Positions 25,375 through 29,051 of a stretch of DNA of 55,737 nucleotides are shown here, in pieces (the stretch's first letter is position 1; each line of letters opens with the position of its first letter). The stretch comes from Pseudomonadota bacterium (GTDB lineage Bacteria; Pseudomonadota; Gammaproteobacteria; Xanthomonadales; Xanthomonadaceae). Both the position numbers and the translations under genes were made by a program. The stretch lies in assembly GCA_018240435.1 (NCBI GenBank), contig JAFEFT010000031.1, forward strand, positions 1 through 55,737. The letters run 5' to 3'. The notes under the pieces were generated by a model. The model saw only the letters and a list, made by a program, of their open reading frames with translations, made no database searches and was not told the origin of the DNA.

Positions 25375-27096
25375 ATGGAGAAGCGTGATTTTTCCGGCAA
25401 CGAGCGATTGCTGCTGCTTTCCGTGTTTGCCGTCGTCATCGGCGCGATCAGCACCCTCGGTGCATGGGTGTTGTTGAAGTTGATTCGCTTCTTCACCAAT
25501 CTGTTTTTCTTCCAGACGCTGTCGGTGGCGCAGACGTCGCCGGCAAACCATCACCTGGGCGCGTGGGTGATCGCGGTGCCGGCGATCGGCGGCCTGCTGG
25601 TCGGGTTGATGGCACGTTATGGCACCGACAAGATTCGCGGCCACGGCATTCCCGAAGCACTCGAAGCGATCCTGTTCGGCAAGAGCCGCATGTCCGCCAA
25701 GGTCGCCATTTACAAGCCGATTTCTTCCGGCATCGTGATCGGCAGTGGTGGCCCGTTCGGTGCCGAAGGTCCGATCATCATGACCGGCGGCGCTGCCGCA
25801 TCCTTGCTGGCGCAGGCCTTCCATCTGACCTCGGTCGAGCGCAAGGCACTGTTCGTCGCCGGCGCCTGCGCCGGCATGACTGCCGTGTTCGGCACGCCGG
25901 TGGCGGCGGTGCTGCTGGCGGTCGAACTGCTGTTGTTCGAACTGCGGCCGCGCAGCTTGCTGCCGGTGGCGCTGGCCTGCGCAGTGGCCGGCTTTCTGCG
26001 CCCGCTGTGGGCCGATTCCTGGCCGTTGTTTCCGCTCGATGTGGCGGCGACTTCGCCGTGGGCGATGGCCTCGTGCGTGGTCGCCGGCCTGGCGGCTGGT
26101 TTCCTGTCGCTGGCGATGACCTATGCCGTGTACGGCGTCGAAGATACGTTCGCGAAGCTGCCGCTGCACTGGATGTGGTGGCCGGCGCTCGGCGGCGTGC
26201 TGGTCGGTATCGGCGGCTATTTCGAACCGCGCGCATTCGGCGTCGGCTATGACGTGATCGGCGATCTGCTGCATCAGCATCTGGCGTTGTCGGTAGTGGT
26301 GGCGTTGCTGCTGGTGAAAGCGGCGATCTGGGTGATCGCGCTGGGCTCGGGCACCTCCGGCGGCATCCTCGCGCCGTTGTTGATGATCGGTGCCGGGCTG
26401 GGCTGCGCGCTGGGTATCTGGCTGCCGGGCGGCAGCGCCGGGCTGTGGGCGCTGGTGTGCATGGCCGCCACGCTCGGCGGCACCATGCGGGCACCGTTGA
26501 CGGCAGTGGTGTTTGCCTTCGGCCTGACTCACGACGCCAACGCCGTGCTGCCGGTGCTGCTCGGCAGCACGGTGGCCTACGGCTTGACGGTGGTGGCGCT
26601 GCCGCGCTCGATCCTCACCGAAAAAATCGCCCGCCGTGGTCATCACATCCTGCGCGAGTACGGGCTCGATCCGCTCGAACGGCAGTTCGTGTCCGAGGTG
26701 ATGACGCAGAACGTGAAGACCGTCGATGCCGCGCTGAGCGTGCGCCAGGTGCGCGACGAGCATTTCGGCGAAGGCCAGACGCAGCGGGCGTATCCAGTGG
26801 TCGCGCACGGGCGTTTGCTGGGCATGGTCGATCGCGCTCGACTGAACGCCTGTCCGCCCGATCGAATCGACCGCGGCATCGCCGATCTGTTCATTGCCGA
26901 AACCGTCGCACATGCCTTGCCGACCGAGACCTGCCGCGCCGTCGCCTCGCGCCTGGCGGCGTTCGGGTTGGAGCGCATGCCGGTGGTGGAGTCGCCCGAT
27001 TCGCTGCGCCTGATCGGCATCGTCAGCCGCAGCGACCTGCTGCGCCCGACCAGCCAGCTCTACGAGGAAGAAACGCAGCGCGAGAAGTTCATCTGA
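25375..27096 (+). CDS. ClC-family chloride channel/exchanger with two CBS domains
   Basis: A 573-residue membrane protein. Residues about 15-450 form the ClC fold. The first chloride-binding loop is GHGIPE (residues 89-94), where the E. coli exchanger has GSGIPE, so the central Ser is His90 here. The external gate glutamate is Glu131 in FGAEGPI, and the internal proton glutamate matches Glu189 in LFELRPRS. Both support H+/Cl- exchange rather than a pure channel. The C-terminal 130 residues form a CBS pair (EVMTQNVKTVD and RMPVVESPDSLRLIGIVSRSDLL). ATG 25375 was chosen because GGAGA lies just upstream; ATG 25357 is an alternative. asnB follows after a long leader. Confidence 0.92.
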   Translation: MEKRDFSGNERLLLLSVFAVVIGAISTLGAWVLLKLIRFFTNLFFFQTLSVAQTSPANHHLGAWVIAVPAIGGLLVGLMARYGTDKIRGHGIPEALEAILFGKSRMSAKVAIYKPISSGIVIGSGGPFGAEGPIIMTGGAAASLLAQAFHLTSVERKALFVAGACAGMTAVFGTPVAAVLLAVELLLFELRPRSLLPVALACAVAGFLRPLWADSWPLFPLDVAATSPWAMASCVVAGLAAGFLSLAMTYAVYGVEDTFAKLPLHWMWWPALGGVLVGIGGYFEPRAFGVGYDVIGDLLHQHLALSVVVALLLVKAAIWVIALGSGTSGGILAPLLMIGAGLGCALGIWLPGGSAGLWALVCMAATLGGTMRAPLTAVVFAFGLTHDANAVLPVLLGSTVAYGLTVVALPRSILTEKIARRGHHILREYGLDPLERQFVSEVMTQNVKTVDAALSVRQVRDEHFGEGQTQRAYPVVAHGRLLGMVDRARLNACPPDRIDRGIADLFIAETVAHALPTETCRAVASRLAAFGLERMPVVESPDSLRLIGIVSRSDLLRPTSQLYEEETQREKFI

Positions 27097-27181
27097 AATC
27101 TTGAAACTTCGCCGGTCGCCGCTTGCGCCCCCTCGCGTAATCAGTCACGATCAACGCATGCCATCGCCGCCCACTCTCGCC

Positions 27182-27277
27182 ATGAATGCTCTCGCCCTCA
27201 GCGGCGATGGCGTGCGCGCGTTCGTCGCCAAATTCAATCGCAACAATAATCCCCGCCCACCGCAGGCCGGCGATTAG
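27182..27277 (+). CDS. Asn-rich leader peptide upstream of asnB
   Basis: A 31-codon ORF starts at ATG 27182 and stops at TAG 27275-27277. Five of its residues are Asn, four of them clustered as AAT-CGC-AAC-AAT-AAT (27236-27250, residues Asn-Arg-Asn-Asn-Asn). It lies between clc and asnB, 28 bp before a textbook intrinsic terminator. An in-frame ATG at 27158 would extend it to 39 residues. No strong Shine-Dalgarno is seen. The layout (control codons of the amino acid made by the downstream enzyme, stop, terminator, structural gene) is that of his/trp/leu attenuation leaders. The coding and regulatory role is inference. Confidence 0.7.
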   Translation: MNALALSGDGVRAFVAKFNRNNNPRPPQAGD

Positions 27278-27313
27278 CGCGCGATTTCTCACCGCTCCGA
27301 TCCCGAAACCTGC
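27262..27313 (+). promoter_or_regulatory. Candidate antiterminator pairing (GCAGG with CCTGC)
   Basis: GCAGG (27262-27266) lies 12 nt after the last Asn codon and is complementary to CCTGC (27309-27313) in the left arm of the terminator. A ribosome stalled on the Asn codons would leave GCAGG free. A ribosome at the stop codon (27275) would cover it. So the geometry suits ribosome-controlled antitermination. Only five base pairs are certain by eye; neighbouring CGG/CCG complementarity may extend it. Confidence 0.5.
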
Positions 27314-27341
27314 ACCCGCAAAGTGCAGGTTTTTTGTTTTT
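27306..27341 (+). terminator. Intrinsic terminator/attenuator before asnB
   Basis: A perfect 10-bp stem AAACCTGCAC (27306-27315) / GTGCAGGTTT (27323-27332) with loop CCGCAAA runs directly into TTTTTTGTTTTT (27330-27341). This is the cleanest rho-independent terminator in the window. It ends only about 18 nt before the asnB start codon, and the asnB Shine-Dalgarno (AAGGA, 27348-27352) follows it. Any full-length asnB message from the upstream promoter must read through it. Confidence 0.88.
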
Positions 27342-27359
27342 CAGCCCAAGGAAAACTCC

Positions 27360-29051
27360 ATGTGTTCGATTCTCGGTGTATTCGATTTGCGCAGCGGCAT
27401 CGACCTGTCGCCGCTGCGCCCGCTGGCGCTCTCGCTTTCGGCAAAGCAGCGCCATCGCGGGCCCGACTGGAGCGGCGTGCATGCCGATGCCCACGCGATC
27501 CTCGTCCATGAGCGACTGGCCATCGTCGATCCGGCCGGCGGTTCGCAGCCGTTGCGTTCGGCCGATGGTCGCCTCGTGCTGGCAGTGAACGGCGAGATCT
27601 ACAACCATCGCGAACTCGAAGCCGGCCTGCGCGCACCGTATGCGTTTCAGAGTGGATCCGACTGCGAAGTCATCAACGCCTTGTTCGCGCAGCGCAACGA
27701 CGTGAGGACGTGGCTGGGCGAGATCAACGGCATCTTCGCGTTCGCGCTGTGGGATGCCGTGGCGCAACGCGTGCTGATCGCGCGTGATCCGATCGGCGTG
27801 TGCCCGCTGTACTGGGGTCACGACCACGACGGTCGGCTCTGGGTCGCCTCCGAGATGAAGGCGATCGCGCGCCTGTGCGAGGACGTTGCCGCGTTTCCGC
27901 CCGGCCACTGGTACGACAGCGCGACCGGCGTCTGCGCGCGCTATTACACGAGGACATGGCGCAACTACGACGCCGTCGCCGGCGTGAGCGTGTCGGCGCA
28001 GGATTTGCGCGAAGCGTTCGAAGCGGCCGTGCATCGGCAGATGATGAGCGACGTGCCTTACGGCGTGCTGCTCTCCGGCGGGCTGGATTCTTCACTGGTC
28101 GCCGCCTGCGCTGCCCGTTTCGCGCGCAAGCGCATCGAAGAGGACGACCGCAGCGAGGCGTGGTGGCCGCGCCTGCATTCGTTCGCCATCGGCCTGGAAG
28201 GCTCGCCCGATCTGGCCGCCGCGCAAGTCGCGGCCGACGCGTTGGGCACCGTCCACCACGGCTTCAAGTACACATTCGAAGAAGGCCTCGACGCGCTGCC
28301 CGACGTGATCGCCCACATCGAAACCTGCGATGTCACCACCATCCGCGCCTCGACGCCGATGTATCTGCTGGCGCGGCGGATCAAGGCGATGGGCGTGAAG
28401 ATGGTGCTCTCCGGCGAGGGCAGCGACGAGATTTTCGGCGGCTATCTGTACTTCCACAAGGCGCCGAACGCGCGCGAGTTCCACGATGAACTGGTGCGCA
28501 AACTCGACGCCCTGCACAGCTACGACTGCCTGCGCGCCAACAAGTCGATGATGGCGTGGGGCGTCGAGCCGCGCGTGCCGTTCCTCGATGTCGAGTTTCT
28601 CGACGTGGCGATGGGCATGGATGCCGCGCACAAGATGGTGCGGCCCGGGCCCGATGGTCGTCGCGGTATCGAGAAGGCCGTGCTGCGCGAAGCCTTCGTC
28701 GGATATCTTCCCGATGAAATCCTGTGGCGACAGAAGGAACAATTCAGCGATGGCGTCGGCTACGGCTGGATCGACGGCCTGAAAGCGCACGCGCAGGCGC
28801 AGGTGAGCGATCGCGAATTCGCCGCCGCCGCCGGCCGCTTCCCGATCAACACACCGCAGACGAAGGAGGCGTACTTCTACCGCGCGATCTTCGATCGCTT
28901 GTTCCCCGGCGATGCCTGCGCCCGCACCGTGCCCGGCGGCAAGTCGATCGCCTGCTCGTCGCCGGCAGCGATCGCCTGGGACGCAACCTTCGCCAGCGCC
29001 GCCGACCCCTCGGGGCGGGCGGTGGCGGGGGTGCATGAGGCTGCAGGGTGA
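27360..29051 (+). CDS. asnB: Asparagine synthase (glutamine-hydrolysing) AsnB
   Basis: AsnB converts aspartate to asparagine with glutamine and ATP. The 563-residue protein starts MCSILGVFD, so Cys2 becomes the N-terminal nucleophile of the glutaminase domain; RHRGPDWSG, the Arg-containing RLAIVDP and NGEIYNH motifs follow. The synthetase domain has the pyrophosphate loop SGGLDSS at residues 239-245, then STPMYLLAR, LSGEGSDEIFGGY and the C-terminal EPRVPFLD. The length matches E. coli AsnB. AAGGA stands 7 nt before ATG 27360. Expression is probably attenuated by the Asn-rich leader and terminator upstream. The end of the gene is followed by 75 bp and then the MITE copy B. Confidence 0.95.
   Translation: MCSILGVFDLRSGIDLSPLRPLALSLSAKQRHRGPDWSGVHADAHAILVHERLAIVDPAGGSQPLRSADGRLVLAVNGEIYNHRELEAGLRAPYAFQSGSDCEVINALFAQRNDVRTWLGEINGIFAFALWDAVAQRVLIARDPIGVCPLYWGHDHDGRLWVASEMKAIARLCEDVAAFPPGHWYDSATGVCARYYTRTWRNYDAVAGVSVSAQDLREAFEAAVHRQMMSDVPYGVLLSGGLDSSLVAACAARFARKRIEEDDRSEAWWPRLHSFAIGLEGSPDLAAAQVAADALGTVHHGFKYTFEEGLDALPDVIAHIETCDVTTIRASTPMYLLARRIKAMGVKMVLSGEGSDEIFGGYLYFHKAPNAREFHDELVRKLDALHSYDCLRANKSMMAWGVEPRVPFLDVEFLDVAMGMDAAHKMVRPGPDGRRGIEKAVLREAFVGYLPDEILWRQKEQFSDGVGYGWIDGLKAHAQAQVSDREFAAAAGRFPINTPQTKEAYFYRAIFDRLFPGDACARTVPGGKSIACSSPAAIAWDATFASAADPSGRAVAGVHEAAG

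Follow-up and report, generated by a model that had tools for sequence, protein, structure and literature searches.

The window, as we call the whole stretch of DNA analysed here (55,737 nucleotides of contig JAFEFT010000031.1 from a member of the Xanthomonadaceae), contains a clc gene that ends at position 27096 and an asnB gene that starts at 27360, with 263 bases in between. The clc product is a CLC chloride channel with CBS domains, and asnB is identified as asparagine synthase B by the equivalog model NF006949 (832.6 bits against a cut-off of 499). The bases between the two genes hold a short ORF with clustered Asn codons and a terminator hairpin (Table 1), which an earlier note on this DNA had read as an asparagine attenuator placed in front of asnB. 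On re-reading the sequence, we found the Asn codons, the GCAGG segment, the TAG stop codon, the terminator, the U-rich tail and the asnB ribosome site exactly where that note had located them. A terminator scan recovered the same hairpin, which has a perfect 10-bp stem (27306-27315/27323-27332, loop 27316-27322) and a G-U pair (27305-27333) as its 11th pair, and it detected no second terminator-like site on the + strand between clc and asnB. The leader peptide matched no Pfam family.

Table 1. Observed and predicted features of the asnB leader region, in positions of the window.
Feature	Position	Strand	Basis or remark
Predicted -35 box TTGCGC	27123..27128	+	Window's best scoring promoter pair, spacer 17
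Predicted -10 box CACGAT	27146..27151	+	6 nt upstream of ATG 27158
Leader peptide ORF MPSPPTLAMNALALSGDGVRAFVAKFNRNNNPRPPQAGD, most likely 39 codons	27158..27277	+	Probably leaderless transcript; ATG 27182 internal
Control codons AAT CGC AAC AAT AAT (Asn-Arg-Asn-Asn-Asn)	27236..27250	+	Read from sequence
Putative antiterminator 5' arm GCAGG	27262..27266	+	Fold, covariation
Predicted inner antiterminator helices, 5' sides	27268-27279	+	Over stop codon, after GCAGG in fold
Leader stop codon TAG	27275-27277	+	Read from sequence
Putative antiterminator 3' arm CCTGC	27309..27313	+	Common to terminator's 5' arm
Intrinsic terminator hairpin, 11 pairs, 7-nt loop	27305..27333	+	Terminator scan, alignment, fold
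U-rich terminator tail	27330..27341	+	Read from sequence
SD-like AAGGAA of asnB	27348..27353	+	Read from sequence
asnB, glutamine-hydrolysing asparagine synthase B, proposed regulated gene	27360..29051	+	NF006949

We used AsnB relatives from whole genomes to compare this region across the family (133 of 149 genomes with AsnB) and the order (71 of 121), the two sets of genomes partly overlapping. The resulting set comprised 188 asnB upstream regions; G023, where asnB lies at a contig end, was left out. A detector that requires an ATG-initiated ORF with at least three Asn codons in eight and a stop codon close to a terminator was positive in 131 of the 188 regions versus none of 940 dinucleotide shuffles. 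The leader layout is present in 48 genera. By family, the detector was positive in 113 of 135 regions of f1, 14 of 15 of f12, 3 of 3 of f2, 1 of 18 of f7 and 0 of 14 of f9, as well as in 0 of 1 each of f4, f5 and f10. Positives among the named loci L002-L044 (36 of 43) include Lysobacter, Xanthomonas, Stenotrophomonas, Pseudoxanthomonas, Luteimonas, Thermomonas, Arenimonas, Rhodanobacter and Dyella.

The leader was detected in 130 of the 137 regions belonging to an AsnB at least 70% identical to that of the window, versus 1 of the 51 regions below 70%. Six of the seven close relatives missed by the detector show the leader by eye, in versions that start with GTG, stop later or have a weak U tail. 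At the same places these six score 53-70 bits with covariance model R1, the alignment of which excludes them. In the seventh, G003 (AsnB 77% identical), inspection of the upstream region by eye found the leader to be absent. The earlier note had expected support from related Xanthomonadales and had named relatives without the Asn codons or the terminator as evidence against its reading. The comparison bears this expectation out, in that the Asn codons, the stop codon, a GCRGG-like segment and the terminator are conserved and the segment shows compensatory changes with the 5' arm of the terminator, and close relatives that have the leader are the rule.

The order contains a second AsnB group (59-69% identity) with the leader in only 1 of 51 regions. 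In three relatives from the window's genus (L214, L215 and L216, from G025, G068 and G095) the leader and terminator are kept, and about 150-365 bases, partly repeat-like by eye, separate the terminator from asnB. Three loci labelled Rhodococcus, Deltaproteobacteria and Holophagales (L038, L039 and L011) encode an AsnB 72-81% identical to that of the window with no leader detected, and represent either mislabelled bins or transfer.

The start of the leader ORF differs from that first described. The earlier note had reported 31 codons (27182-27277), of which the frame and the stop stand and the start does not: an in-frame ATG lies upstream at 27158, and in relatives of the same genus an in-frame ATG lies about as far from the stop codon. 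Because the start position in relatives and the promoter spacing both agree with ATG 27158, the leader most likely consists of the 39 codons from 27158 to 27277. Across the 131 leaders the peptide is 20 to 67 codons long (median 33), and its N-terminal part is highly variable by eye. A promoter-like pair stands before the leader ORF, with a -35 element beginning TTGC in at least 118 of 131 leaders, a spacer of 17 or 18 in 129, a score above the control's 95% level in 127 and a -10 element whose end is 6 or 7 nt away from the leader ATG in 122, all counts that are biased towards good promoters because leader starts were picked by promoter score. The distance allowed between -10 and ATG was 4-9 nt, and across this range random places showed no preferred distance. 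Upstream of the leader ATG, an SD-like motif occurs in 30 of 131 cases and in 0 of 131 after masking of the -10 box and one base on each side; before asnB, such a motif occurs in 122 of 131. The regular spacing between -10 and ATG and the absence of an SD before the leader ATG point to a leaderless transcript as the probable template of the leader peptide.

We assessed the position of the control codons in an alignment (A1) of 92 sequences, made from at most three representatives per genus that were at most 88% alike within the genus (93 sequences, with L256 from G220 left out). Counted upstream from the start of the leader arm, which contains the GCRGG segment, the share of Asn is 0% at 0-5 nt and 4-9% at 6-11 nt, 45% at 12-14 nt, 85% at 15-17 nt and 76% at 18-20 nt, and then 33-63% further up to 35 nt (n=92). 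The last Asn codon lies 14 or 17 nt from the arm in 73 of the 92 sequences, and the stop codon begins 13 nt past the arm start, likewise in 73 of 92. A ribosome covers approximately 12-15 nt downstream of its A-site. Because this footprint fits the spacing of both the Asn codons and the stop codon, a stall at the Asn codons would keep the arm accessible, and a ribosome that has reached the stop codon would cover it. In 12 of 92 sequences the last Asn codon lies at 8 or 11 nt, which is nearer than the footprint argument likes.

The codon AAT makes up 380 of the 790 leader Asn codons (48%; 131 genomes) versus 34 of 350 (9.7%) in 42 asnB genes; the leader therefore keeps the amino acid yet uses a codon that is rare in asnB. 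As asnS is found above cut-off in 143 of 148 genomes of the family, including the window's own, Asn-tRNA can report free asparagine.

The leader arm (GCRGG and its neighbours) and the 5' arm of the terminator vary jointly between lineages, the pairs being GCAGGCC/GGCCTGC, GCGGGCC/GGCCCGC, GCCGATGCGGGT/ACCCGCATCGGC and GGCGGGCC/GGCCCGCC. Within a genome, the two arms share a longest complementary run of 7.44 nt on average (131 genomes), as against 5.71 nt when arms are swapped between genera, 4.63 nt with shuffled leaders and 4.81 nt when a segment further upstream is used (130 genomes). In A1, 94.0% of the terminator cells are paired and 8 of its 12 pairs have changed on both sides, and the antiterminator, the columns of which were chosen from the sequences themselves, is paired in 74.5% versus 30-40% when slid. 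For both helices, two of five covariation measures fall within the shuffles: pairs changed on both sides (antiterminator, 6 versus 5.4; terminator, 8 versus 6.9) and pair types (12 versus 14.6 and 19 versus 17.6, respectively). The outer antiterminator pairs are lineage-specific, and the window's arm has only 5 contiguous pairs.

The central antiterminator column pair, 52-125, is GC in 80 sequences, AU in 12 and unpaired in 0 (n=92). In the 12 AU sequences, the base shared with the terminator forms a U-G wobble with its terminator partner in 8 and a U-A pair in 4. Thus, the shared base follows the leader more strictly than it follows its terminator partner, with 0 of 92 pairs broken with the leader and 8 of 12 only U-G in the terminator. 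We mapped the AU state on a tree of 42 AsnB proteins, from the leader genomes with a whole asnB, labelling the state by motif match and counting four rows with a one-sided match as without it. Four changes are needed, at least three of which are forced by supported branches; the AU state is therefore not one inherited accident. The pairing of GCAGG with CCTGC that had been proposed for the window thus covaries in relatives, both in the runs between the arms and at this column pair, and the predicted antiterminator, which would be exclusive with the terminator, has the backing of this covariation.

We folded the stretch of RNA that a ribosome stalled at the Asn codons would leave free, ending in the middle of the terminator. 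In 129 of 131 such RNAs, pairing with the leader takes up 5 nt or more of the terminator arm; the mean z is -1.96, and z is below -1 in 92 of 131. The free RNA of the window is predicted to form GCAGG/CCTGC and, across the stop codon, inner helices (-21.6 kcal/mol, z -2.27), and the full region is predicted to fold into the terminator instead (-29.8). The folding that the earlier note had called for therefore returns an antiterminator for the free RNA and the terminator for the full region, and the predicted antiterminator is larger than the GCAGG/CCTGC pairing originally put forward. In many of 29 genomes inspected, an inner helix forms between the region of the stop codon and the spacer that precedes the terminator, and several folds from family f12 have a small hairpin directly after the Asn codons, a possible protector or pause hairpin.

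The sequence therefore holds the features of an attenuator: an ORF with Asn codons, a terminator, a predicted exclusive antiterminator, a matching codon and stop geometry, and agreement between the product of the gene and the tRNA that would be sensed. On the observed anatomy, conservation, geometry and covariation, the leader is very probably a ribosome-mediated transcription attenuator that is specific for asparagine and controls asnB. The codons, stop position, segment, terminator and compensatory changes of the relatives all argue for the attenuator reading first proposed from the window.

Translation of the leader, its leaderless start, ribosome stalling, the response to asparagine and termination in the cell would combine as follows. 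RNA polymerase would start at or beside the A of the leader ATG at 27158, and a ribosome would load on the leaderless RNA end and follow the polymerase. With Asn-tRNA well charged, this ribosome would reach the stop codon at 27275 and cover GCAGG (27262-27266), such that the terminator (27305-27333) forms and transcription stops before asnB. When Asn-tRNA is short, the ribosome would stall at the Asn codons (27236-27250) and GCAGG would stay free to pair with CCTGC in the 5' arm of the terminator, in which case no terminator would form and asnB would be made.

The same switch could also respond to a signal other than Asn-tRNA charging, namely the general translation rate, the interspersed Arg codons or a protein. 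Arg codons are indeed frequent among the Asn codons, and leaders that serve as general translation sensors exist. However, it is Asn that is concentrated at the footprint distance, the downstream gene makes asparagine, and just 1 of 51 regions from the distant AsnB group carries the leader, all of which make a different signal improbable. We consider it less probable again that the main action of the leader peptide or of the terminated leader RNA is in trans, as with peTrpL and rnTrpL of Sinorhizobium meliloti. An attenuator RNA that is leaderless and also functions in trans is on record (PMC7298713), and the terminated RNA would here be approximately 180 nt long, but a peptide of 20 to 67 codons (median 33) with a widely different N-terminal part argues against a trans role, and the conserved features fit an RNA switch acting in cis. 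Least probable of all is that the hairpin is an ordinary terminator of clc, which ends upstream on the same strand at 27096 with no other + strand terminator-like site before asnB, and that the small Asn-codon ORF is coincidental, given that hairpin and ORF occur together in 48 genera, that the leader segment covaries with the terminator arm and that a promoter-like pair above the 95% control level precedes the ORF in 127 of 131 cases (a count biased upward by choosing the start by score).

We extended the search for the asparagine attenuator beyond the order. The detector found no Asn leader, once five weak matches had been rejected, at 62 asnB loci whose labels do not place them in this order. 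These loci were 36 of L045-L081 (where L070 is Lysobacterales and L071 and L076 name no order) and 26 from other orders, with a 27th row, L329, excluded as being in the order. The five positives (2 + 3 of 62) were rejected and taken to be the C-terminal end of an upstream gene followed by a terminator, because each peptide resembles the C-terminus of a protein seen repeatedly at other loci; in three of them the stop codon is more than 200 nt before asnB. A search of 369 genomes with R1, a weak test in which 10 candidates were scored for each genome and few genomes were of the order, gave nothing above 36 bits outside the family. Rfam returned nothing at gathering score in the window region and no T-box among 5 matches up to E 5. 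T-box, riboswitch and plain clc terminator were considered as identities for the element and rejected.

R1 is driven by the terminator, with plain terminators reaching approximately 43 bits and ilv-type leaders approximately 47. The R1 match present in 145 of 148 genomes was for this reason not taken as a count of leaders. Among the matches listed, all those of at least 52 bits sit at asnB starts, and some asnB leaders reach only 39-45 bits. We inspected 19 R1 matches from those listed, which comprised 2 asnB starts (G030, at a contig end, and G023, on a contig other than that of its AsnB match), 10 ilv-type leaders and 7 other terminators. None of the 17 inspected places away from asnB, again from the matches listed, has an Asn leader.

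The ilv-type leaders, from the same family, precede ilvC (L309, L312, L324, L311, L313, L316 and L318), ilvD (L320) or a threonine dehydratase gene and ilvD (L308); 6 of the 10 downstream genes were named by NCBIfam and the others by a similar start, with L311, L313, L316 and L318 assigned by eye. These leaders have a similar layout and terminator (R1 35-47 bits) and carry, by eye, Leu/Val/Ile or Thr/Ile codons where the asnB leader has Asn. Because 10 of the 17 non-asnB matches are ilv-type leaders of similar build, the order seems to use one attenuator layout for several amino acids.

In its organization, the asnB leader resembles the classical proteobacterial attenuators (trp, his, leu, thr, ilv and pheA), with the same leader ORF containing codons for the end product, the same stop codon over the antiterminator arm, the same mutually exclusive antiterminator and intrinsic terminator, and a biosynthetic gene downstream. 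It differs from them in that the control amino acid is asparagine and the leader mRNA is apparently leaderless. For trpL of S. meliloti, a leader RNA whose first bases are the ATG of the ORF has been described (PMC7298713), and the asnB leader would be alike in this respect; trpL is a Trp leader, whereas for asnB we infer the leaderless start from promoter spacing only. The Rfam model Thr_leader (RF00506) matches the window's terminator weakly through its 3' hairpin, at 18.3 bits against a gathering score of 55, and covers the hairpin only.

We found no earlier description of an Asn leader in the literature, as judged on titles and abstract beginnings of the best-ranked matches. The accessible sections of PMC2965389, PMC8632094, PMC10219788, PMC1262725, PMC4833913 and PMC1183508 contain no mention of asparagine, and those of the first four contain none of asnB. 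The attenuated operons of E. coli and Salmonella given in the part of PMC1183508 at hand do not include one for asparagine, and that source mentions many other organisms without listing them. In PMC5009743, the phrase 'asparagine codons' occurs once. The suggestion of a possible new class thus holds in so far as an Asn leader is undescribed in the literature searched; as to mechanism, the leader is a new specificity of known attenuators. Provisionally, we regard the asnB leader as a new amino-acid specificity among ribosome-mediated attenuators.

If this reading is correct, asparagine would join the few amino acids that leader-peptide attenuation senses, an addition backed by comparison across 48 genera. 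The reading would also provide a concrete mechanism for the control of asnB in Xanthomonas, Stenotrophomonas, Lysobacter, Rhodanobacter and their relatives. The regular spacing between -10 and ATG would make these leaders a good system for studying the coupling of leaderless translation to transcription. More tentatively, and with somewhat less than even confidence, we propose an order-wide class of Asn-specific attenuator whose transcript begins exactly with the leader start codon, allowing the first ribosome to load on the emerging RNA without delay and to keep step with the polymerase. The ilvC, ilvD and threonine dehydratase genes of the order would have leaders built on the same template, different in their control codons alone.

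The first bases of the window's leader, including the ATG, are paired by a strong inverted repeat at 27158-27213 (z -2.61 versus shuffles). The best Rfam match (E 0.062) places a viral hairpin model on this repeat (27159-27212) and was judged to be chance. The start codon is paired in 30 of 123 folded leaders. The 5' hairpin of the window may hinder a leaderless start or limit translation of the leader, or may be a chance feature. In relatives of the same genus, the start codon is paired in G025 with a z of 0.46, no better than shuffles, partly paired in G095 and unpaired in G068.
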